Below, in pieces: positions 51,166 through 62,187 of a stretch of 64,000 bases of DNA. The notes below the pieces were generated by a model. The model worked only from the letters and a program-made list of their open reading frames with translations, had not been told where the DNA came from and ran no database searches. The stretch is from NCBI RefSeq assembly GCF_000523235.1, contig NZ_CP006850.1, forward strand, positions 1,550,001 to 1,614,000. The letters run 5' to 3'. This DNA is from Nocardia nova SH22a (GTDB taxonomy: Bacteria > Actinomycetota > Actinomycetes > Mycobacteriales > Mycobacteriaceae). The position numbers and the translations under genes are program-made. The first letter of the stretch is position 1. Every line of letters begins with the position of its first letter.

Positions 51166-51290
51166 GTGTGGTGACCTCGTCATGTCAGTACTCCACTTCC
51201 TGCGAGCGTAATCGGGCGCAGTGTGGTGGCCTCGTCATCATGTCAGTACTCCACTTCCTGCGAGCGTTTACGGATCGTGGTGACCTCGTC
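51166..51290. repeat. Tandem duplication of the narG 3' end
   Basis: The segment TGTCAGTACTCCACTTCCTG plus CGAGCG, which encodes the last residues of NarG and its stop, occurs at 51184-51208 and again at 51241-51266. GTGTGGTGRCCTCGTCAT precedes each (51166 and 51221), and a third partial copy of the latter (GTGGTGACCTCGTC) lies at 51277 inside narG. The step is about 55 bp; the outer copy is in the narG-narH spacer and is noncoding. Confidence 0.85.
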
Positions 51291-54200
51291 GCGCTGATTT
51301 CCGGTGGGCCCGTGGTAGTTCAGCGCGAACGACTGCTGCGCGTAGCCGCCGATCAGATGCGTGGGTTTGATCATGATGCGGGTGAGGGCGTTGTGGATGC
51401 CGCCGCGTTTGCCCCTGCCCGCCCGCAGTTCCGGAGTCCCCTCGATCCGCGGCACGTCGACCGCGCGGTCCTGGGCGTGATACATGAAGACCGTGCCCTC
51501 GGGCATGCGGTGGCTGACGATCGCGCGAGCCACGACCACACCGTTGCGGTTGACCGCTTCGATCCAGTCATTGTCCGCCACACCGATTTTCGCGGCATCG
51601 CGATCGGACATCCAGATCGCCTGCCCGCCCCGGGAGAGGGTGAGCATGTGCAGGTTGTCCTGATAGGCGGAGTGGATGGACCACTTCGAATGCGGGGTGA
51701 GGTAGCGGACGGTGACTCCTCGCCGGCCGACCCTGCCGATTTCGGGCTCCCGGAACAGCGCCGACATGTCCAGCGGCGGCCGGAAGATCGGAAGTTGCTC
51801 TCCCAGTTCGATCATCCAGTCGTGATCGAGGTAGAAGTGCTGGCGGCCGGTGAGGGTGTGCCAGGGCTTGAGCCGCTCGGTGTTGATGGTGAACGGCGAG
51901 TACCGGCGTCCGCCGGTTTCGGACCCGGACCATTCCGGCGAGGTGATCACCGGAACGGGCCGGGCCTGGGTGTCGGCGAAGGTTATTCGCTTGCCCTCGT
52001 GTTCGGCGGCCAGATCGGCCAACTCGGTCCCGGTGCGCTGTTCGAGCGCGTGGAACCCCTCCACCGCCAGCCGGCCGTTGGTGGTGCCGGACAGGGCCAG
52101 CACGGCCTCCGCGGCGTGGGTGTCCTTGGCCAGTGACGGGCGGCCCTGTGCGACACCGGAAACCACGGTGCCGTTGACGCCCCGGAGGTAGTCGACCTCG
52201 GCATCGGGAATCGTGGTGACGCCCTTGGTCGTGACGCCGAGTGTTTCGATCAGCGGACCCAGCGCCGCCATCTTCTCGGCCAGCTTCGGGTAATCCCGCT
52301 CCACCACTACGAGTTTCGGCATCGTGCGGCCCGGAATCGGTTCGCATTCACCGGCTTTCCAGTCCAGCACCCGCCCGCGCGCCTGGGCCAGCGCATCGGC
52401 CGAATCGTGCTGGAGCGGCATCGCCACGAGATCCTTGCGCACCCCCAGATGTTTCTCGGCCAGCCAGGAGAAGCCGCGCGCGATGCGGTGGAATGCCTCG
52501 AAATCGGTCTTCGCCTCCCACGGCGGGGAGATGGCGGGGGAGAAGGCGTGTACGAACGGATGCATGTCCGTGGAGGACAGATCGTGTTTCTCGTACCAGG
52601 TCGCGGCCGGGAACACGATGTCGGAGAACAGTGTCGTGGAGGTCATCCGGAAGTCCATCGACATCAGCAGATCGAGCTTTCCGGTCGGCGCCTGCTCACG
52701 CCAGCGCACCTCGGCCGGGCGCACACCGGCGGAATCGTCGGCCTGCAGATTGGAGTCCGCGCCCAGCAGATGCCGGTGGAAGTACTCGTTGCCCTTACCG
52801 GAGGACCCCAGCAGGTTGGCCCGCCAGACGGTGAGTACGCGCGGGAAGTTCTCCGGGGCGTCGGGATCCTCGCAGGCGAAGTTCAGCTCACCGGACTTCA
52901 GGCCGTCGACCACATAGTCCTGCGGCGTCTTGCCCGCGGCCGCCGCGTCGTCGACCAGATCGAGGGGATTGCGATCGAAGGTGGGGTAGCTCGGCATCCA
53001 GCCCAGCCGCGAGGCCAGCGCGATGTTGTCGGCGGCGGTGCGCCCGGCGAAGATGCCCGAACCCAGTGGGGAGGAGAAGGATTCGGAGGTGAACGGGTCG
53101 TAGCGCCACTGGTCGTTGGTCAGGTACCAGAACACCGTGCCCTGCATCTGGCGGGGCGGTCGCTGCCAGTCGAGACCGAAGGCGAGGGTGGACCAGCCGG
53201 TGACCGGCCGGCACTTCTCCTGACCGACGTAGTGCGCCCAGCCGCCGCCGTTGACGCCCTGGCAGCCGGTGAGCAGGGTGAGGGTGAAGAAGGCGCGATA
53301 GATCTGATCGGAGTGGAACCAGTGGTTGGTGCCCGCGCCCATCAGGATCATCGACCGGCCGCCGGAACGGTCGGCGTTGTCGGCGAATTCGCGGGCGATG
53401 CGGATCGCCTGTGCGGCGGGCACTCCCGTGATCTGCTCCTGCCAGGCGGGTGTGTAGGGCGCGGAGTCGTCGTCGTATCCGGTGGCCCAGTCACCGCACA
53501 GGCCCGGACGACCCACACCGTATTGCGCCAGCAGCAGATCGAAGACGGTGGTGACCCGGCGCCCGGCCACCGTCGTCGTGGGCACGGATCGGGTGACGAT
53601 CGCGGAGTCGGCGTCGAAACGCGGGAACTGTACGGCCGCAGCATCGTCGGTGCGGCCGTACAGAGTCGACAGGGGGTCGACCGACCCCAGGTCGAGATTC
53701 CAGCGACCGGCGCCGGAGTCGCCGAATCGGTCGCCCAGAGTTCCGTTGGGCACCACCGGATTTCCGTCGCCGTCCAGCAACACGGTCTTGTGGTCGGCAT
53801 TGTCCACATCGAATTCGGTGTGCCCGGCCGCCGCGAGATCGGCCGCGGTGAGGAACTTTCCGGGCAGCCAGGTGCGGCCCTGGTATTCGCCGTCGCCGTT
53901 CCAGCCGCCGTCGCGTTCGTCGAGTGTGACGAGGAACGGCAGATCGGTGTAGCGCTTGATGTAGTCGTCGAAGCGGGGCGTCGTGCGCTCCACGAAGAAT
54001 TCGCGGAGCACGACATGCCCCATCGCCATCGCCAGCGCCGCATCGGTGCCCGGCCGCGCGGGCAGCCACTCGTCGGCGAACTTGGTGTTGTCGGCGTAGT
54101 CGGGCGAGACCACCACGACCTTCTGACCGCGATAGCGGGCCTCGGTCATGTAGTGCGCGTCGGGGGTTCGGGTGACGGGGACGTTGGAACCCCACATGAT

Positions 54201-55022
54201 CAGGTAGCCCGCGTCGAACCAGTCGGCGGATTCGGGCACGTCGGTCTGGTCGCCGAAGACCTGCGGGGAGGCCACGGGCAGGTCGGCGTACCAGTCGTAG
54301 AACGACAGCATCGATCCGCCGAGCAGCGAGATGAAGCGGGCGCCGATCGCATGCGAGACCATGGACATAGCGGGGATCGGCGAGAATCCGGCGATGCGGT
54401 CGGGGCCGTACTTCTTGATCGTGTGAACGTGTGCGGCGGCGGCGATTTCGGCCGCCTCCCACCATTCCGCCCGCACGAATCCGCCCTTGCCGCGCGCGGA
54501 CTTGTAGATCTTCGCCCGCTCGGCGTCGGAGACGATGTCGGCCCAGGCGAGGACCGGATCCTTCCAGCGCGCCTTGGCATCTCGGTACATCTCGAGCAGA
54601 ACTCCGCGCACATACGGGTACCGCACGCGCGCGGGACTGTATGTGTACCAGGAGAAGCTGGCTCCGCGGGGACAGCCGCGCGGCTCGTACTCCGGTTTGT
54701 CGGCGCCCACCGACGGATAGTCGGTCTGCTGCGACTCCCAGGTGATCACACCGTCGGAGACATAGATCTTCCACGAACACGATCCGGTGCAGTTCACACC
54801 GTGTGTGGAGCGCACCACCTTGTCGTGGGCCCACCGGTCGCGATAGAACTCGTCGGCCTCGCGCCCGCCGACCTTGTGCACCGTGCGCAGATCCTCGGAC
54901 ACCTCACCACGCTGGAAGTACCTGCCCATCTTCAGCAGGGCGTCGGCCGCGGAGATACCGTCCGCCGGCGCTTCGTTCGCCGCTGTCGAGGGGGGCGAAC
55001 TCTTCTGGTGTGAAACGACCAC
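51243..55022 (-). CDS. narG: respiratory nitrate reductase alpha subunit (molybdoenzyme)
   Basis: About 1259 residues; reduces nitrate to nitrite at a Mo-bis-MGD centre. N-terminal [4Fe-4S] FS0 ligands in THGVNCTGSC with His and two Cys, then RGCPRGASFSWY. Mo-ligand Asp in QTDVPESADW, then WGSNVPVTRTPDAHY, all as in E. coli NarG. No Tat signal, so a cytoplasm-facing NarGHI. Start GTG 55022; the longer frame to 55106 would add a hydrophobic, Arg-rich extension that is not typical. Ends in RSQEVEY, whose codons are duplicated downstream. Confidence 0.95.
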   Translation of the reverse strand: MVVSHQKSSPPSTAANEAPADGISAADALLKMGRYFQRGEVSEDLRTVHKVGGREADEFYRDRWAHDKVVRSTHGVNCTGSCSWKIYVSDGVITWESQQTDYPSVGADKPEYEPRGCPRGASFSWYTYSPARVRYPYVRGVLLEMYRDAKARWKDPVLAWADIVSDAERAKIYKSARGKGGFVRAEWWEAAEIAAAAHVHTIKKYGPDRIAGFSPIPAMSMVSHAIGARFISLLGGSMLSFYDWYADLPVASPQVFGDQTDVPESADWFDAGYLIMWGSNVPVTRTPDAHYMTEARYRGQKVVVVSPDYADNTKFADEWLPARPGTDAALAMAMGHVVLREFFVERTTPRFDDYIKRYTDLPFLVTLDERDGGWNGDGEYQGRTWLPGKFLTAADLAAAGHTEFDVDNADHKTVLLDGDGNPVVPNGTLGDRFGDSGAGRWNLDLGSVDPLSTLYGRTDDAAAVQFPRFDADSAIVTRSVPTTTVAGRRVTTVFDLLLAQYGVGRPGLCGDWATGYDDDSAPYTPAWQEQITGVPAAQAIRIAREFADNADRSGGRSMILMGAGTNHWFHSDQIYRAFFTLTLLTGCQGVNGGGWAHYVGQEKCRPVTGWSTLAFGLDWQRPPRQMQGTVFWYLTNDQWRYDPFTSESFSSPLGSGIFAGRTAADNIALASRLGWMPSYPTFDRNPLDLVDDAAAAGKTPQDYVVDGLKSGELNFACEDPDAPENFPRVLTVWRANLLGSSGKGNEYFHRHLLGADSNLQADDSAGVRPAEVRWREQAPTGKLDLLMSMDFRMTSTTLFSDIVFPAATWYEKHDLSSTDMHPFVHAFSPAISPPWEAKTDFEAFHRIARGFSWLAEKHLGVRKDLVAMPLQHDSADALAQARGRVLDWKAGECEPIPGRTMPKLVVVERDYPKLAEKMAALGPLIETLGVTTKGVTTIPDAEVDYLRGVNGTVVSGVAQGRPSLAKDTHAAEAVLALSGTTNGRLAVEGFHALEQRTGTELADLAAEHEGKRITFADTQARPVPVITSPEWSGSETGGRRYSPFTINTERLKPWHTLTGRQHFYLDHDWMIELGEQLPIFRPPLDMSALFREPEIGRVGRRGVTVRYLTPHSKWSIHSAYQDNLHMLTLSRGGQAIWMSDRDAAKIGVADNDWIEAVNRNGVVVARAIVSHRMPEGTVFMYHAQDRAVDVPRIEGTPELRAGRGKRGGIHNALTRIMIKPTHLIGGYAQQSFALNYHGPTGNQRDEVTTIRKRSQEVEY

Positions 55023-55131
55023 AACGCCCCCAACGAGACACAGGAAACCGGGCTGACGAAACCGAGAGTAGGGACGCTCGCGGGCCCGGCAAAACCTTCG
55101 ACTCACACCGCGCCCACGACATTCGTGAACT

Positions 55132-55426: not shown

Positions 55427-55906
55427 TTATCGGCCTGCGCGCTGTGCGCCGTCGGGCCAGACCACGTCGACCGGTACACCTCTCGCACGCGCGAACTCCA
55501 CCACCGAACCAGTTCCGCTGCGTTCGCCAGGCTGACCGTCCCACACCGCCACGAGACGATCGCATGTCCCCACCACGGCCTCATTGGCGGCCTCGTAAGC
55601 TTCGGGTCCGGTATCGGTGAACGGCATTACGTTCACCACTACGGCGCGCTGGGACAGGTCATCGAATACCGGCGCATGGTCGGGTTTGACCTTCTTCTCG
55701 CGATAATTTCGTGACGGTACAACCACCTCGAGCCGGCCGCCCGAGTCCAGGACCGCCTGGGCGAATACAGAATCCGCGCCCCGCGCAATACAACTGATGC
55801 CCGTCACATCATCGTGGACAGCCAGTAGTCGCGTGATCTCGTCGTACACCAGACGCCGCGTGTCGTCGCTGATGTCCATATGTCCGGTGACACCGATTCG
55901 AACCAT
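55427..55906 (-). CDS. SLOG-superfamily (Rossmannoid nucleotide-binding) protein
   Basis: 159 residues. RIGVTGHMDISDDTRRLVYDE at the start, ISCIARGADSVFAQAVLDSGG near 38-58, then VVPSRNYREKKVK, CDRLVAVWDGQPG near 114-126 and SGTGSVVEFARARG near 129-142: the alternating beta-alpha layout and Gly-rich loops of SLOG/DprA-LOG-like domains, which bind nucleotides or nucleotide-derived ligands. It follows the XRE-TPR regulator by 9 bp and is surely co-transcribed. It lacks the PGGxGT signature of LOG cytokinin hydrolases. Role unknown; ligand sensing for the regulator is inferred. Confidence 0.8.
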   Translation of the reverse strand: MVRIGVTGHMDISDDTRRLVYDEITRLLAVHDDVTGISCIARGADSVFAQAVLDSGGRLEVVVPSRNYREKKVKPDHAPVFDDLSQRAVVVNVMPFTDTGPEAYEAANEAVVGTCDRLVAVWDGQPGERSGTGSVVEFARARGVPVDVVWPDGAQRAGR

Positions 55907-55915
55907 GCAAGAGTT

Positions 55916-57349
55916 CTACACGGTGTCGATGATCAGTGGACGTACCCGATCCCTCAGCTCGGCGACGGACCGTACACCGGCGAGGTGATCGGTGCGGCTG
56001 TACACGTTCAGCAACTTCTTCCGGACGCGATCCGATGTGGTCTGCTCGACCGTGTTCAATGCCTCATGCCCGAGTCGCGCCGCTTCGTCCAACTCGCCTT
56101 CGAGCAGCCGCGCCTCCACAATCCCCAGCCTGTCCAGAGCCGAGCTCCGCAACCGTCCTGGGACCCTCAACTCGATTGCGCGCTCGATTTCCCTTGCCGC
56201 CTCCGCAGCGAATCCTGAGTCGTTGCGAGCGATCTCGAGCAGTCTTCCGCCCAACGTCCCAGAAAGCTCGGCTGCATCGAAGTATCGGATCCAGTACGGA
56301 TCGCAGTCGGGGTCGGCGGCGGCGAACGCCCGATGCGCCTTGTCACAGGTCCGGCGGAACGCCGACGGTCGATCGAGCTTCCCGTAAGCCCACGCCTCAC
56401 GGGTGTAGAGCATCGCGCGCACTGTCGGCGTCACCGCATCACCGAATTGGTCCTGCGCCAGCCGGATCACCTCCAGCGCGTCGACCGCTCGCTGATGTTC
56501 CAAGTCCCGGCGACCGGAGACTGTCCCGTAATGGTTCAGAGACAGCAGCTGCCTGGCCATACCTGCCATGGCGTTCGCGCACAAAGCCGGATCGCCCGCA
56601 GCCTTCGCCGACCCCACCGCCAGCATGTAGTACTCCTGGGCCGCCGTCTGCAACCCTGAATCCCAGGACATCGTTGCTGCCGCTTCGGCAAGCAATGCCA
56701 GTACGCGCCGTAGTCGGCGCTGGATCTGCGGTGGATGGCTGTCCTGCAGTAGTTCATTTACCTCGCTCAATTGGCCGACCACGGCTCTGCGACGCAATCC
56801 ACCACCGAATTGGTCGTCCCACTCGCGAAACATCCGTGCCGCGTTTTCCAACTGCTCGACCTCTTGTATGCCGATGCTGCCGTGGGTAATGGCAGCTACC
56901 GGCTCTTGACTGACGCGCTGCAGCCACTGTTCCAGCGGTTCGAGCAGCTTCGCACCGACCACCACGCCGATCAGCGCTTGGGTTGCCTGGCGTCGGTCCA
57001 GCATCAAATCTCTCCTGGTCAGTTCCGCCGTCACGGTGGCGCAATCGTTACTCCACGATTTCGAATCCCACTCGGCGATATCCATGCCCTTTCCGGCAAC
57101 GTCAGGTTCTGGGGTCGCGACCTGTTGGCGTCTCGTGTGAAAGTGCCCGCGTTGTTCCGGGGTAGCTGCGTCCAGCAGTGTCGCCATCAGCCCCGCGTAG
57201 AACTCATCGAGTTGGATCGTTGTCCCTCGGCTGGCCCACTTTTTCACTGTCTGCACATGAATGCCGAGCCGGTCGGCGAATCGCTGCTGCGGGAGTCCCA
57301 GGGCTTTTCGCAACGCGGTTGCGTCGGCACCTGTCCACGTGACATGCAT
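55916..57349 (-). CDS. XRE-family regulator with TPR-like C-terminal region
   Basis: 477 residues. N-terminal HTH (about 8-36, ALRKALGLPQQRFADRLGIHVQTVKKW) and a helical-repeat C-terminus from about 160 to the end (ALCANAMAGMARQLLSL, RAMLYTREAWAYGKLDR, RLGIVEARLLEGELDEAARLG), the layout of actinobacterial signal-responsive XRE-TPR regulators. ATG 57349; a frame to 57412 would cover the operator repeats. Divergent from the operon starting at 57590, which it probably controls through the GCGTATACC repeats. Confidence 0.88.
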   Translation of the reverse strand: MHVTWTGADATALRKALGLPQQRFADRLGIHVQTVKKWASRGTTIQLDEFYAGLMATLLDAATPEQRGHFHTRRQQVATPEPDVAGKGMDIAEWDSKSWSNDCATVTAELTRRDLMLDRRQATQALIGVVVGAKLLEPLEQWLQRVSQEPVAAITHGSIGIQEVEQLENAARMFREWDDQFGGGLRRRAVVGQLSEVNELLQDSHPPQIQRRLRRVLALLAEAAATMSWDSGLQTAAQEYYMLAVGSAKAAGDPALCANAMAGMARQLLSLNHYGTVSGRRDLEHQRAVDALEVIRLAQDQFGDAVTPTVRAMLYTREAWAYGKLDRPSAFRRTCDKAHRAFAAADPDCDPYWIRYFDAAELSGTLGGRLLEIARNDSGFAAEAAREIERAIELRVPGRLRSSALDRLGIVEARLLEGELDEAARLGHEALNTVEQTTSDRVRKKLLNVYSRTDHLAGVRSVAELRDRVRPLIIDTV

Positions 57350-57377
57350 ACCCAATCCTGGCCCCTCAGTGCTAGGT

Positions 57378-57407
57378 GCGTATACCAGCGTGAACCCAGC
57401 GTATACC
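57378..57407. promoter_or_regulatory. Direct-repeat operator of the XRE regulator
   Basis: GCGTATACC at 57378-57386 and again at 57399-57407, 21 bp (two helical turns) apart, each centred on the palindrome GTATAC. They lie 29 bp upstream of the XRE start and face the divergent operon. The gap 57350-57589 has no gene; its right half holds the leader stem-loop. Confidence 0.6.
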
Positions 57408-57465
57408 GCCATGTACCGCGTGCACCTTCTGTCGGCGGAATCCGGAAGCCACGCTGGAAATCAGC

Positions 57466-57552
57466 CCCGATGCCGGGAGCCCCAGCCCCGCAAGGGGATT
57501 GCGGCGCCAATCGAGTTCGTAGCCCAAAACGGTCGGCGTACCCGGCATCGGG
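57466..57552 (+). ncRNA. Structured mRNA leader with GCAA-tetraloop hairpin
   Basis: CCCGATGCCGGG (57466-57477) pairs perfectly with CCCGGCATCGGG (57541-57552), closing a 63-nt internal region. Inside, CCCC (57486-57489) and GGGG (57494-57497) enclose GCAA, a GNRA tetraloop. The structure ends 37 nt before the ATG at 57590, leaving GAAGG free as ribosome-binding site. No T run follows, so if it regulates it would act on RNA stability, translation or by ligand binding. Class unknown. Confidence 0.5.
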
Positions 57553-57589
57553 ACACTCAACCCGACCGACACACCAATTGAAGGTTCAG

Positions 57590-57890
57590 ATGCTGACGAC
57601 ATCGCTCCTGATCGGCGGTCTGGCCGCCGTGCTGACAGGTCTTCCCGCTGCTGCCTACCTCATGCCGGCCCGGCCACGTCCCACCAAATCCGCCCGCCAC
57701 GCCCTATGGGCACCGGACTGTTCACACCACGTACCGCTGATGCCGTTCACCGAGGCCCAAGCGCACCGGGAGATGCAACTCCACCGGGGGTGCCGCCGCG
57801 GTGATTGCGCGCAAGGACGCCGCCTGGATGGCCCTGGTCGACGCTGGTCGCATCCGCCCGTGTGTGCCCCTCATCGGAGGCATTCGGTGA
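57590..57890 (+). pseudogene. small Cys-containing membrane protein, apparently frameshifted
   Basis: From ATG 57590: an N-terminal hydrophobic helix (MLTTSLLIGGLAAVLTGLPA, about 1-25), then HALWAPDCSHHVPLMPFTEA and MQLHRGCRRGDCA. At about 57809-57813 the frame should change: the +1 frame continues with RKDAAWMALVDAGRIRPC and stops at 57888-57890, giving the CARK-AAW-LVDAG-I-P tail I associate with small actinobacterial proteins of this kind. A 2-nt loss in a GC run explains it. As the sequence stands, frame 0 reads on into the next gene. A sequencing error or real mutation cannot be told apart here. Confidence 0.5.
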
Positions 57891-58072
57891 TCCGCAGTAC
57901 GGCGCACCAGCGCGAGCAGTGGGACATCATCCACCGATTCTGCGATGACTGCCTCGCACCGATCGCCAGCCTGGAGGAGGCGCGGCGGGCCCTGACCGTT
58001 CACGCCGGTCACGGGCTGGGATGTCTGCAATATCTGGCCGCGCTGTCCCGGGTATCGGAGGTGATGGCGTGA
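57887..58072 (+). CDS. 61-residue protein with CxxC
   Basis: GTG 57887 overlaps the shifted-frame TGA of the preceding gene by 4 bp and is itself overlapped by the next gene. The product VIRSTAHQREQWDIIHRFCDDC... has a CDDC pair near 19-22, a third Cys near 48 (LGCLQYL) and a His near 41, a possible small metal-binding or redox protein. Unknown family. In the sequence as given it could also be the C-terminal part of a 160-residue fusion starting at 57590. Confidence 0.6.
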   Translation: MIRSTAHQREQWDIIHRFCDDCLAPIASLEEARRALTVHAGHGLGCLQYLAALSRVSEVMA

Positions 58073-58284
58073 CCGTCACCGACGACAGCTGGTGTGACTG
58101 GTGCGCCCTCGAGATCCGGGGAGTACCACTGCGCGTGGATGGTCGTGTCTTCTGCAACGGAACCTGTCTCAGCACATATCGCGCGGGTTTCGAGTCTCCC
58201 TCGGTGATCGAGTTGCCCTGCCGCCCCAACCCCGAGGCCATAGAAGAGTCGGCACGGTTGGAATCCGAAGGGCCACAGCGATGA
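58069..58284 (+). CDS. 71-residue zinc-ribbon protein
   Basis: VTVTDDSWCDWCALEIRGVPLR... with CDWC near 9-12 and CNGTC near 29-33, a treble-clef/zinc-ribbon pattern (C-x2-C, C-x3-C), followed by an acidic tail. GTG overlaps the previous stop by 4 bp. No family name recognised; zinc binding is inferred from the Cys spacing. Confidence 0.72.
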   Translation: MTVTDDSWCDWCALEIRGVPLRVDGRVFCNGTCLSTYRAGFESPSVIELPCRPNPEAIEESARLESEGPQR

Positions 58285-58430
58285 CCGATGAACTTCCACG
58301 CCGCAGGCCCGGTGAGTTCGGGTTCGTTCGCCACCCCACCACGCTGCCGTGTGCGGCACTGCTGATCCGTGTCGCGCAAGGGCTCGACGAGTGGAGCGAC
58401 CGCGATCGCCATGAACCCGGGCTGGAGTAG
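58281..58430 (+). CDS. 49-residue protein
   Basis: MTDELPRRRPGEFGFVRHP... to HEPGLE; ATG overlaps the zinc-ribbon stop by 4 bp. One Cys in a hydrophobic stretch (TLPCAALLIRVAQGLDEW) that could form an amphipathic helix. No known family; retained as coding because of the chain of 4-bp overlaps. A role as a peptide substrate or accessory subunit for the enzymes downstream is possible but unproven. Confidence 0.55.
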   Translation: MTDELPRRRPGEFGFVRHPTTLPCAALLIRVAQGLDEWSDRDRHEPGLE

Positions 58431-58482
58431 TCGTAGCTCACCGCGAGACATTCTGCGCACGTTCTCAGTTCTGGGAGAGTCG

Positions 58483-59853
58483 ATGACAACAGTGAATAGC
58501 TTTGCCCATCAACAGAAGTCGGATGCTGTCTACCTCGACATCGCCGCGAACGACCACGGCGACGAGAAAGGCGCACTCGTCCACCGCGCCCTCACACGTC
58601 TGCAGACGGCCAACCCTCATGTGGTCGAGATCGGTCCCGGCGGTGGCGCGGCTGTGCAATACCTCGCCTCGAAACTCACCTCCGGCGATCGGGTGCGGAT
58701 GACGTTGATCGAGGCTCCTGGCGTGATGTCGCATTCGCTGACGCAGGCCATGGATGCGTTCACGGCCGTGGGGACCTGCAACCTCATGCACGGCTGGGCG
58801 AAGGACCTTTCCACGCTGATTGCCGAGCCCGTTGACGTGATCAGCGCCTCGGCGCTCATGCACGAGGTGTACTCCTACGGCGGAGCATACGCGGGGCTGC
58901 ACACGATGATGCGGGTGCTGCCGACCGTGATCCGTCACTACGGATTCTTCGTCTACCGCGACGTCTACGCCGTCGACGCGCCGACCCTGCACGAACGCGT
59001 CGTGCACTGTTACAGTTCGCAATCCTGGCTGCAGTTCCTGCGAATGTTCGTGCCCCACTATCTCGTCGAGGGAGCGCATCCCTATCATCACCACGACGAC
59101 GAGGTCGTCGCACGCCAGAATTCGCGGATAGTGCCGGTCGCCGAACTCGACACTCACGTCTGCGCCGTCATCGAGGCACCGGTCGGGCTGTTCCGAGAAG
59201 TGCAGCGTCACTACATCACCCTGCGCGATCACGTCTGGAGGTCCGGGATCCTCGGATTCGAGCCGATATTGGATGGCGAGTTGTCGGTGGACTGGGTCGA
59301 TTTCCGCTCCGGTCACAAGCGCGTTCACTACACCCTCACGGACTCGGTGATGGCCTCACGGCACCCGACTGCGCTGCTCGCGGTCAGTGAACGATACGGC
59401 GACCATTACGTGATCGACGGCGACATCTTCGACGCCGTCACCGACGCCGCTCTCATGGCCTTCCTGGCCGGTGCCGAACTCGCCGACTCGCGATGCGAAC
59501 CGACATGGCATGGATGGCTGGCCCGCGAGGGCCGCGAGACCTACGCATACCTGACCGCGGACGATCTGCTTACCGCGTTCGCCATGAACTCACTGGAAGG
59601 GCGGCCGGATCAAGACGCGGTGTTGATGCCGGTCTGCGCCGAGGACGTATGCATGCGAGATCGTCGCTACTACAATCGTTTTCTTGCCAAGCGGCTCGCG
59701 AACCCGCTGGTCGACGCGAAACAGCTGATCCTGTTCCAGAACATCCCAGCCCATGACGCCCACACTGTGCAACGAGCGCTGGCCACACTGCAACAGCTGT
59801 GCTCCAAACGCAACGTCGCCCGCCTGCACACTGCTATCCATTGGAGAGGATGA
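58483..59853 (+). CDS. SAM-dependent methyltransferase with unknown C-terminal domain
   Basis: 456 residues. SAM motif I VVEIGPGGGAAVQYL near 47-61, motif II region RMTLIEAPG near 73-81, and DVISASALMHEVYSYGG near 115-131 in the position of motifs IV-V. The C-terminal part (about 285-456) ends with CAEDVCMRDRRYYNRFLAKRL, a separate helical domain I do not recognise. ATG 58483 behind GGGAG, 52 bp after the 49-residue gene; the CYTH gene overlaps its stop. Methyl acceptor unknown. Confidence 0.82.
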   Translation: MTTVNSFAHQQKSDAVYLDIAANDHGDEKGALVHRALTRLQTANPHVVEIGPGGGAAVQYLASKLTSGDRVRMTLIEAPGVMSHSLTQAMDAFTAVGTCNLMHGWAKDLSTLIAEPVDVISASALMHEVYSYGGAYAGLHTMMRVLPTVIRHYGFFVYRDVYAVDAPTLHERVVHCYSSQSWLQFLRMFVPHYLVEGAHPYHHHDDEVVARQNSRIVPVAELDTHVCAVIEAPVGLFREVQRHYITLRDHVWRSGILGFEPILDGELSVDWVDFRSGHKRVHYTLTDSVMASRHPTALLAVSERYGDHYVIDGDIFDAVTDAALMAFLAGAELADSRCEPTWHGWLAREGRETYAYLTADDLLTAFAMNSLEGRPDQDAVLMPVCAEDVCMRDRRYYNRFLAKRLANPLVDAKQLILFQNIPAHDAHTVQRALATLQQLCSKRNVARLHTAIHWRG

Positions 59854-60425
59854 ACCGAATGCACCTGATCGAGGTCGAGCGCAAACGCGCCGTCGCTGAC
59901 GCTGCGTCCCTGTGCGATCGACTCGTTGGCCTGGGTTACCGCGAGGACGGTCAGGTTACCGAGGTCGATGTCTACTACAGCCGACCCGACGTGGACTACA
60001 TGCAGACCGTCGAATGCCTTCGGATACGTCAAAGGGGCGACTTTTGCGAGATCACCTACAAACCGCCGTCGAATCCCGGCACCCACGGCGCGAGCCACAT
60101 TATCGCCAAACGCGAAATCAACGTTTCCCTTGCAGGAATCGAGGACGCCGATGCCGCACGCGTACTGCTCGAGGCTGTTGGGATGCGCGAACTCGCGGTC
60201 GTGGAGAAGAATCGGCGTGTTTTCCGCCATCCCGATCGTCATGACACGGTGGTCGCTCTCGACAGCGTCATCGGCGCAGGCGAATTCGTCGAATCCGAGG
60301 TGTGCGCTACCGATCCACAGGAGGCGGCCACCCGCCTCGAGCAGATCGAGCGCGAACTGGGGATCGATGCACTTCGGGTCGTCACGGTGCCGTATCGCGA
60401 CTTGGTCATGATGGCTGCGCGGTGA
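59850..60425 (+). CDS. CYTH-domain enzyme (class IV adenylate cyclase/triphosphate tunnel family)
   Basis: 191 residues covering one CYTH domain with the active-site residues in place: EVERK (ExExK) near 6-10, LRIRQRG near 57-63, ITYKPP near 69-74, VVALDSVIGAGEF and VESEV. These bind triphosphate and two metal ions. Family members are adenylate cyclases, thiamine triphosphatases or inorganic triphosphatases; which applies cannot be told from sequence. ATG 59850 (or 59859) overlaps the methyltransferase stop by 4 bp. Last gene of the operon. Confidence 0.88.
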   Translation: MNRMHLIEVERKRAVADAASLCDRLVGLGYREDGQVTEVDVYYSRPDVDYMQTVECLRIRQRGDFCEITYKPPSNPGTHGASHIIAKREINVSLAGIEDADAARVLLEAVGMRELAVVEKNRRVFRHPDRHDTVVALDSVIGAGEFVESEVCATDPQEAATRLEQIERELGIDALRVVTVPYRDLVMMAAR

Positions 60426-60465
60426 CGATCGACTCGTATCATCTTGCCCACCCTGTCACCCTGCG

Positions 60466-60545
60466 ACCAGACCGGTCTGGCCGTTGACCGTGGTTCGAGC
60501 AGGATGACAGCGGTGGTGCGGGCCGCGATCTTCATCCAAGTGACG
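60466..60545 (-). pseudogene. Degraded fragment of an ECF41 sigma factor (SnoaL part)
   Basis: On the minus strand WMKIAARTTAVILLE and, after a frame change, TVNGQTGLVAG match WMRIAARTTTATLLE and TVNGQPGLIAE of the intact sigma factor at 61285-62187. DNA similarity is high over about 80 bp and fades on both sides. No start, sigma regions or full SnoaL domain remain. A relic of a second copy beside the intact one. Confidence 0.7.
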
Positions 60546-60641
60546 TGGATTGCCGCTTCGCGCACAGTGTTTGCCTGATGGCCGCCAGGTGGTCATTCGT
60601 GGCGGCTGCCGGGACACATTGCGGAAACTAGGGTGGGGGAC

Positions 60642-61355: not shown

Positions 61356-62187
61356 TCCGGCCGTCGGCGATATCGAAGGCGTAGACCGAGACGACCGTGC
61401 CGTCCTGCTCCGCGATCAGGCCGGGTTGCCCGTTGACCGTGCGTTCGAGCAGGGTCGCGGTGGTGGTGCGGGCCGCGATCCGCATCCAGGCGTCGGCGAT
61501 CCGCTCGCGGCCGACGATCGGGTCGCGGAAGGTCACCGCCAGGCCGCCGCCGTCGGCCGTCGCCGTCGCATTCGGATCGAGCAACCCGATCAGGGCCTCG
61601 ATATCGCTTGTCTCCCAGGCTCTTTTGAAATTCCGGACCACCTCGGCGCGTTCGGCGCCCGATGGGCGCTTCGAGGTGTCGATGCGGCGGCGGGCGCTGG
61701 TGGCGAGCTGACGGCAGGCGGCGGGGGTGCGCCCGACGACGTCGGCTATCTCGGCGAAGGGGTAGCGGAACACATCGTGCAGGACGAATGCCACCCGCTC
61801 GGCCGGTGTCATGGAATCCAGCACGACCAGGAAGGCCATGCTGATCGATTCGTCGAGTGTGACGCGGTCGGCGGGATCGGCCGGGGCGGGGCCGCCGAAC
61901 CATTCGGGACGGCCGGGCACCGGCTCCGGAATCCATTCGCCCACATAGCGTTCCCGTCTGGCGCGCGCCGAGCCGAGCAGATCGAGGCAGATCCGGCTCG
62001 CGACCGTCGTCAACCACGCCCCGGGCACGGCCACCTCCTGCCGCTGCCGTTCGGACAGCGCGTACCAGCGCGCGTAGGTCTCCTGCACGACATCCTCGGC
62101 CTCGGCCAGCGAGCCGAGCAACCGGTAGGCGAGATTGATCAGCTGCCGGCGTTCGCCGATCACCTCGGGCAGGTGCGGGTCGGTCAT
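61285..62187 (-). CDS. ECF41-type sigma factor with C-terminal SnoaL domain (SigJ-like)
   Basis: 300 residues. Region 2 (about 8-75, LLGSLAEAEDVVQETYARWY), region 4 (about 120-175, FRYPFAEIADVVGRTPAACRQL), then a SnoaL-like domain (about 185-295, WETSDIEALIGLLDPNATATADGGG; DGRITDIWVIRNPEKLRPW) that regulates the sigma activity in place of an anti-sigma factor. ATG 62187 lies 8 bp after AAGGAG. Divergent from an FMN reductase gene, the likely target, as ECF41 genes usually adjoin an oxidoreductase-type gene. Confidence 0.92.
   Translation of the reverse strand: MTDPHLPEVIGERRQLINLAYRLLGSLAEAEDVVQETYARWYALSERQRQEVAVPGAWLTTVASRICLDLLGSARARRERYVGEWIPEPVPGRPEWFGGPAPADPADRVTLDESISMAFLVVLDSMTPAERVAFVLHDVFRYPFAEIADVVGRTPAACRQLATSARRRIDTSKRPSGAERAEVVRNFKRAWETSDIEALIGLLDPNATATADGGGLAVTFRDPIVGRERIADAWMRIAARTTTATLLERTVNGQPGLIAEQDGTVVSVYAFDIADGRITDIWVIRNPEKLRPWIDGNRPA

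Follow-up and report, generated by a model that had tools for sequence, protein, structure and literature searches.

A methyltransferase-CYTH gene pair and an interchangeable regulator module in a probable composite island of Nocardia nova SH22a

The genome of Nocardia nova SH22a is a single contig of 8.35 Mb (NZ_CP006850.1), of which we analyzed 64,000 nucleotides (positions 1,550,001 to 1,614,000; here called the window, position 1 being its first letter). Near the right end of the window lies a locus in which a leftward regulator gene and its SLOG-like partner gene face a rightward operon ending with the genes for a class I S-adenosylmethionine (SAM) methyltransferase (MT) and a CYTH enzyme. 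This locus is probably a composite island that consists of a mobile MT-CYTH cassette and an interchangeable control module of regulator and SLOG-like protein, that is, of two modules and not of one system. At the level of sequence, the comparisons established that the two enzymes are paired and co-vary, that the active-site residues of the CYTH enzyme are intact, that the MT has, as a model, a class I fold, that mobile elements carry the MT, and that regulators are exchanged. The outcome is a testable two-gene unit, intact here and present in Nocardia, Streptomyces, and further actinobacteria, for which databases give "hypothetical protein" and a probably wrong "adenylate cyclase." The features of the locus are as follows.

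55427 to 55906, minus strand: SLOG/YspA-like protein of 159 amino acids (aa), partner of the regulator (open reading frame [ORF] with subthreshold matches to PF02481 and PF10686)
55916 to 57349, minus strand: NsdA-family XRE-TPR regulator, 477 aa (NF053720, 220 bits against a cutoff of 75)
57379 to 57407: GTATACC direct repeats, putative operator (GTATAC core and spacing found in relatives)
57420 to 57592, plus strand: structured leader (folding z score of -4.13)
57590 to 58072, plus strand: open frame in which a frameshifted S1 runs into S2 (ORF list and comparison with relatives)
57887 to 58072, plus strand: small protein S2, 61 aa, containing cysteine (ORF and comparison with relatives)
58069 to 58284, plus strand: S3, 71 aa, a small protein resembling a zinc ribbon (weak TRASH/treble-clef matches, E = 0.13)
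58281 to 58430, plus strand: small protein S4, 49 aa (78 to 88% identity in five relatives)
58483 to 59853, plus strand: class I SAM methyltransferase (MT), 456 aa, without a named family (fold model)
59074 to 59715, plus strand: inserted domain of the MT, residues 198 to 411 (between MT-core elements in the model)
59850 to 60425, plus strand: CYTH (triphosphate tunnel) enzyme, 191 aa (PF01928, 69.5 bits against a cutoff of 23.2)
60463 to 60563: fragment of about 100 bp, right boundary of the proposed island (79% identity to the tail of a downstream gene)

The ORF list bore out the gene positions of the first-pass annotation, which had been made from the sequence alone, as well as the 9-bp gap between the two leftward genes and the divergent arrangement. 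The MT and CYTH genes, which run rightward and diverge from the regulator, overlap by 4 bp. Of 35 loci taken from named genomes of Nocardia, Streptomyces, and Saccharopolyspora, 32 have a CYTH gene after the MT gene, the exceptions being L065, L089, and L092, and the spacing was between -13 and +9 bp at 26 of the 27 loci measured, with 159 bp in L075. Distance matrices of the MT and the CYTH enzyme were correlated (r = 0.90, Mantel P = 0.0001, 38 loci). Among the relatives searched, the MT was present in 26 of 148 (weakly in G038, at 31% identity) and the CYTH enzyme, at E ≤ 1e-20, in 25 of 146, with 23 genomes common to both lists. G068 had the MT only, and G087 was in the MT list alone, though its contig carries a CYTH gene (L062); it perhaps lies outside the 146. 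Phylum-wide, at least 2 of 396 genomes had an MT match with four candidates per genome scored, namely that of the window and one of the same genus. The ratios of nonsynonymous to synonymous substitutions (dN/dS) against relatives were 0.09 to 0.26 for the MT, CYTH, SLOG-like, and regulator genes (0.15 to 0.26 for the regulator) and 0.32 to 0.54 for S3, and by this measure the main genes of the locus look to be under purifying selection. The earlier idea that the MT and the CYTH enzyme belong together thus held. We found no account of the pair in the open-access PMC literature, and it is not described in the accessible passages of PMC3702460 and PMC5217690.

A gene for a protein of approximately 100 aa (P100) was seen ahead of the MT gene in the Nocardia loci L061 (7616 to 7918), L064, L066, L067, L068, L085, L086, L089, L091, and L092. 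By eye, P100 resembles a resolvase N-terminal domain, the L061 copy having no Pfam match, and its relatives adjoin NsdA genes in L178, L180, and L185.

The whole gene set, which the first-pass annotation had treated as a unit, is not conserved as a set. Genes at the fetched loci were called with a GC-frame script, and the calls include spurious ORFs. Each module keeps its gene order but the combination does not, so that the scattering of orthologs that had been named as speaking against a single unit was half borne out. Locus L140 lacks the MT and CYTH genes and has the regulator (61% identity), the SLOG-like protein (73%), S3 (46%), and a repeat with the 21-bp spacing of the window. Conversely, L058 keeps S3, S4, the MT, and the CYTH enzyme behind a different front, an NsdA-family gene with a HAD hydrolase gene. 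Because the enzymes persist with another regulator pair in L058 and the operator, regulator, SLOG-like gene, and S3 stand alone in L140, we read these loci as exchanges of the control module. The same two loci largely refute the proposal that the genes of the window locus together make up a single dedicated system, which we regard as quite improbable: the full set does occur in the same order in the close relatives L059 and L060, and in L073 and L084 with split MT frames, but the regulator, SLOG-like protein, and S3 occur without the pair, and the pair occurs with other regulators. A SLOG gene lies upstream at 8 of the 40 MT loci, and none of 20 further SLOG places, which were chosen away from the known MT loci with those excluded, had an MT or CYTH gene. 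Both counts go against the earlier suggestion that the product or substrate of the CYTH enzyme is sensed by the SLOG-like protein or the regulator.

Upstream of the 40 MT loci, a divergent NsdA-family regulator was found at 21, another XRE regulator at 7, a GntR regulator at 5, and no recognized regulator at 7, two of which (L086 and L155) are near a contig end. The NsdA-family regulators at the pair loci adjoin SLOG, NUDIX, APH, HAD, or GNAT partners. With at least 21 NsdA-family matches in the 8.35 Mb of the N. nova genome (32 of 71 candidates scored), chance would place one in about 0.5 of 40 upstream 5-kb stretches, and in fewer than 2 if all 71 were real; this density is that of N. nova, and the density in Streptomyces may differ. 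The curated model placed 8 of 10 tested regulators above its cutoff, with 56 bits for L069 and no match for L074. The window regulator resembles NsdA and NsdB of Streptomyces in scoring far above the family cutoff, but it reaches 222.7 bits against 830 for the NsdA equivalog and is a family member, not NsdA itself. The SLOG identity given earlier to its partner gene rests on matches below the Pfam cutoffs (PF10686, 17.5 bits against 28.2; PF02481, 20.2 bits against 29.6). SLOG matches were present in 45 of 99 relatives and at four places in the N. nova genome, that of the window included, and homologs of the window regulator accompanied SLOG at 12 of the 20 further places, three of them as short fragments only.

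A similar arrangement was looked for at 20 NsdA-family places that were not selected for the MT and were drawn from the best-scoring part of the match list. Eleven of them had an adjacent or overlapping enzyme gene (APH-type kinase in 7, NUDIX in 3, and HAD in 1), and no partner enzyme was recognized at the remaining 9 in the same search. An NsdA-family gene directly beside or overlapping an APH, NUDIX, or HAD gene was observed in L178, L182, L184, L185, L188, L191 to L195, and L197, and most such gene pairs overlap by a few bases. The NsdA-family regulator with an adjacent small-molecule enzyme looks like a general regulator-sensor pair, a layout that hints at the way in which control may be exerted on these poorly understood regulators, and SLOG, GNAT, and CutA-like genes (the last by eye, in L181) seem to fill the same partner slot elsewhere. 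Control modules of this kind are already known, since actinobacterial integrative and conjugative elements (AICEs) carry NsdA-like XRE regulators, KorSA-type GntR regulators, and NUDIX and CutA1 genes, as described for the regulatory zone of pSAM2-like elements in the available passages of PMC3218068, the one article on NsdA with NUDIX that we found in the open-access PMC literature. The MT-CYTH pair, by which the window differs from that zone, is not mentioned in those passages. As a separate observation, an XRE and NUDIX pair replaces the NsdA module ahead of a P100-MT-CYTH cargo in L085 (6123 to 7344) and L091 (6120 to 7341).

The active-site residues of the CYTH enzyme, called intact in the first-pass annotation, were intact in 39 of 39 sequences. 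In the accessible text of PMC8233210, cyclases are distinguished by the motif HFxxxxExExK, by a small residue in place of the first Arg of xRxR, and by Ala in place of the second Glu of ExE. Among the 120 CYTH homologs listed, none had the HF motif, and all 120 kept both the first Arg and the second Glu. The TTM triphosphatase pattern was present, with ExExK in 119 (one gap) and Cys-x-Arg-x-Arg and ExE in 120 each, while the W/YxRxR of thiamine triphosphatases was absent, with Cys in that slot in 120 of 120. Judged by these motifs, the enzyme probably fits a triphosphatase and not a class IV adenylate cyclase. Many of the actinobacterial proteins P0123 to P0242 are named class IV adenylate cyclase yet depart from the three published cyclase features. 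The window enzyme itself passes the cyaB model TIGR00318 (70.3 bits against a cutoff of 57.95), shares the CYTH fold and the database name with CyaB, and has in K120 and R122 (39 of 39) a counterpart, by our own reading, of the Lys/Arg pair that type IV cyclases require according to the accessible part of PMC5217690. However, it differs from CyaB in lacking the HF motif and in keeping the gatekeeper Arg and the second metal Glu, and a SLOG gene is upstream at just 8 of the 40 MT loci; a cyclase whose cyclic AMP is sensed by the SLOG-like protein or the NsdA-family regulator is accordingly hardly credible. SaTTM (Saci_0718) is a sequence relative (E = 3.6e-8) with ExExK, small-residue-xRxR, and ExE as published, and the uncharacterized PH1819 has a better score (E = 3e-10). 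Unlike the window enzyme, SaTTM and the archaeal TTMs have no methyltransferase partner in the published passages available.

The MT is, in the structural model, a class I SAM methyltransferase fold, Rossmann-like and with a glycine-rich motif whose residues are invariant. The unrecognized domain noted at its C terminus is there, but it was modeled as an insert of approximately 210 residues (198 to 411) between MT-core elements, since the strand that completes the MT sheet (412 to 422) comes after it. Folded alone, the insert had a mean confidence score (pLDDT) of 62.4 with an alignment of 32 of the 34 available rows, and this low-confidence model had no PDB match at E ≤ 0.001. A protein search that scored the 7,995 candidates sharing the most words gave 227 MT relatives; for the 120 that were listed, all names seen were actinobacterial, the best named relatives in Nocardia reached 91% identity (N. 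africana), and a precomputed Pfam domain was attached to 1 of the 120. The window MT is below the curated Pfam cutoff (PF13649, 13.9 bits against 27), and in the alignment of 72 of the 120 listed matches PF08242 matched 46 family members at E ≤ 0.1 (best, 1e-5). The PDB folds with the highest Z scores were mostly small-molecule enzymes, with rows within 1 Z being tied, and the MT differs from TmtA, the fatty-acid O-methyltransferase, and the SABATH group in its 7 to 12% identity, its insert, and its score below the Pfam cutoff. A viral fold library gave 53 matches at E ≤ 0.001, which were general class I methyltransferases including capping enzymes, with TM-scores by query length of 0.17 to 0.28 and nothing specific. 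The resemblance to small-molecule O-, N-, and S-methyltransferases, together with the repression of Streptomyces antibiotic production by NsdA proteins (accessible passages of PMC12243394 and PMC3218068), speaks for a minimal natural-product pathway under an antibiotic-type regulator. We consider this unlikely, as no recurrent biosynthetic partner was seen beside the pair, by eye and by nonexhaustive clustering, and the regulator varies among loci.

MT genes were found on four predicted viral contigs. An SPP1-type portal gene lies on the MT stretch in L065, with the same ORFs on the predicted viral contig L154; terminase, portal, and DNA methylase genes accompany the MT in L157, and GntR/UTRA and NUDIX genes adjoin it in L156. 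One of 72,556 plasmid records had the MT, near the end of a linear Streptomyces plasmid, and INPHARED phages had no MT match. The flanks of the window locus were not shared with the other MT loci compared, save for one weak 332-bp match of the right flank in L061. The prophage-like and conjugative-element-like contigs, the plasmid, the patchy distribution, and the TTM motifs would suit an RNA 5'-end or nucleoside triphosphate (NTP) conflict module, in which the CYTH enzyme acts as RNA or nucleoside triphosphatase and the MT adds a methyl group to the exposed phosphate or nucleotide, so that transcripts of a phage or plasmid, or the pools of nucleotides, are changed. The TTM superfamily includes RNA triphosphatases (accessible text of PMC8233210), and the structural matches of the MT include viral mRNA-capping enzymes, at low TM-scores and within a general class I list. 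Nevertheless, this proposal is doubtful: no RNA-binding domain was recognized in the locus proteins, none of them matched PADLOC, and the leading PDB folds are mostly those of small-molecule enzymes.

Several observations weigh against a mobile cassette with an exchangeable control module. No tRNA gene is present in the window, and no integrase, replication, or transfer gene was recognized among the nine locus translations that were scanned, the rest of the window not being scanned. An empty site is not demonstrable, because CPBP neighbors occur in eight relatives without narG. The GC content is 62 to 65% across 55.0 to 60.0 kb against 67 to 70% immediately outside, but this dip is weak evidence since 50 to 52 kb is equally low (64 to 65%). 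The pair is not obligate, because each gene also occurs singly: the CYTH gene in G021 and G082 (L131, L132, and L133, with no neighboring MT gene) and the MT gene in L065/L154. The MT is split between frames in L073, L084, L089, and L091, and these are perhaps real breaks or draft-genome errors. As to the regulators, the hidden Markov model that gave the count of 21 of 40 had nine of the recovered regulators as its source sequences, 3 of the 21 matches (L066 to L068) are weak, and the 40 loci form about 11 groups by judgment. NsdA-family matches were found in 0 of 19 random 12-kb stretches, a weak control because only about 0.6 was expected. PADLOC matched none of the eight locus proteins at E ≤ 0.1, and it is from mobility alone that we infer a conflict role. 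Neighboring ORFs matched 20 and 61 PADLOC families in two target sets (138 and 136 ORFs) against 13 in 136 control ORFs; the targets were 274 of 305 ORFs collected at 31 loci, the rest being outside the size limits, and the controls 136 of 192 called. Most of these families look like generic kinases, methylases, and cyclases, with few proteins behind them (25 of the 61 being listed in the second set), and we claim no defense enrichment because few proteins seem to match many models.

The direct repeats reported earlier were confirmed: GTATACC occurs at 57380 and 57401, 31 to 58 bp ahead of the regulator start and two helical turns apart, a placement that would suit an operator, and the GTATAC core with the same 21-bp spacing recurs in four close relatives and in the more distant SLOG/NsdA module of L140. 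The repeat was not found in eight other homologous promoters examined; two of these carry different repeats at a spacing of about 10 bp. The leader folds at -73.1 kcal/mol, beating all 200 shuffles, and in the predicted fold its outer arm would mask the Shine-Dalgarno sequence of the first gene. The structured leader of the first-pass annotation thus stands for the window but is not general and has little covariation. Five sequences share identical outer arms, the covariation term is unfavorable (+0.8), and changes on both sides were found in just 3 of 49 pairs. A z score of -3 or lower was reached by 2 of 12 comparable leaders (the window and L152) against 2 of 60 controls, with -1.93 in the close relative L059, and a structured leader was rejected as a general feature of NsdA modules. 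Rfam gave no match at gathering scores, and beyond the five source sequences a covariance model of the leader gave no significant match (L148, the best, E = 0.047 at a nonmatching place; L149, E = 0.42 at a matching place).

Under the composite-island reading, the NsdA-family regulator would repress the divergent operon from the 21-bp-spaced repeats, a putative operator, with the SLOG-like partner acting as a ligand sensor or modifier of the regulator and the leader possibly adding translational control. The MT and CYTH genes are probably translationally coupled through their overlap. The chemistry most likely combines the removal of phosphate from a triphosphate compound with SAM-dependent methylation: the CYTH enzyme would take a phosphate off an NTP, inorganic triphosphate, or the 5' end of an RNA, and the MT, its pocket presumably closed by the inserted domain, would methylate the same or a linked small and probably phosphorylated substrate. 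What the pair yields most likely has a role in competition between element and host or between elements, or else is a small signaling or antimetabolite molecule. More tentatively, the pair may represent an unrecognized class of mobile two-enzyme conflict system that makes methylated products from 5'-triphosphates (RNA or nucleotides), is carried by phages and conjugative elements, and is combined with whatever module of regulator and sensor (NsdA with SLOG, NUDIX, APH kinase, HAD, or GNAT) suits the element.

The 4-bp overlaps described for the small genes are present, but the first of them stems from a broken frame. S1 is one frame of approximately 100 codons in four relatives, and in the window a small deletion shifts it into S2. 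S3 occurs in both settings, beside the SLOG/NsdA genes without the MT in L140 and with the MT-CYTH pair beside a different NsdA/HAD pair in L058. On the left, the locus is bordered by what we take to be a nitrate-reductase-alpha-like gene (51243 to 55106, minus strand), and on the right, at about 60.6 kb, presumably by a CPBP-protease-like gene. The fragment at 60463 to 60563 matches approximately 61411 to 61510, the tail of a sigma-factor/SnoaL-like gene, and is possibly the scar of an insertion or rearrangement.

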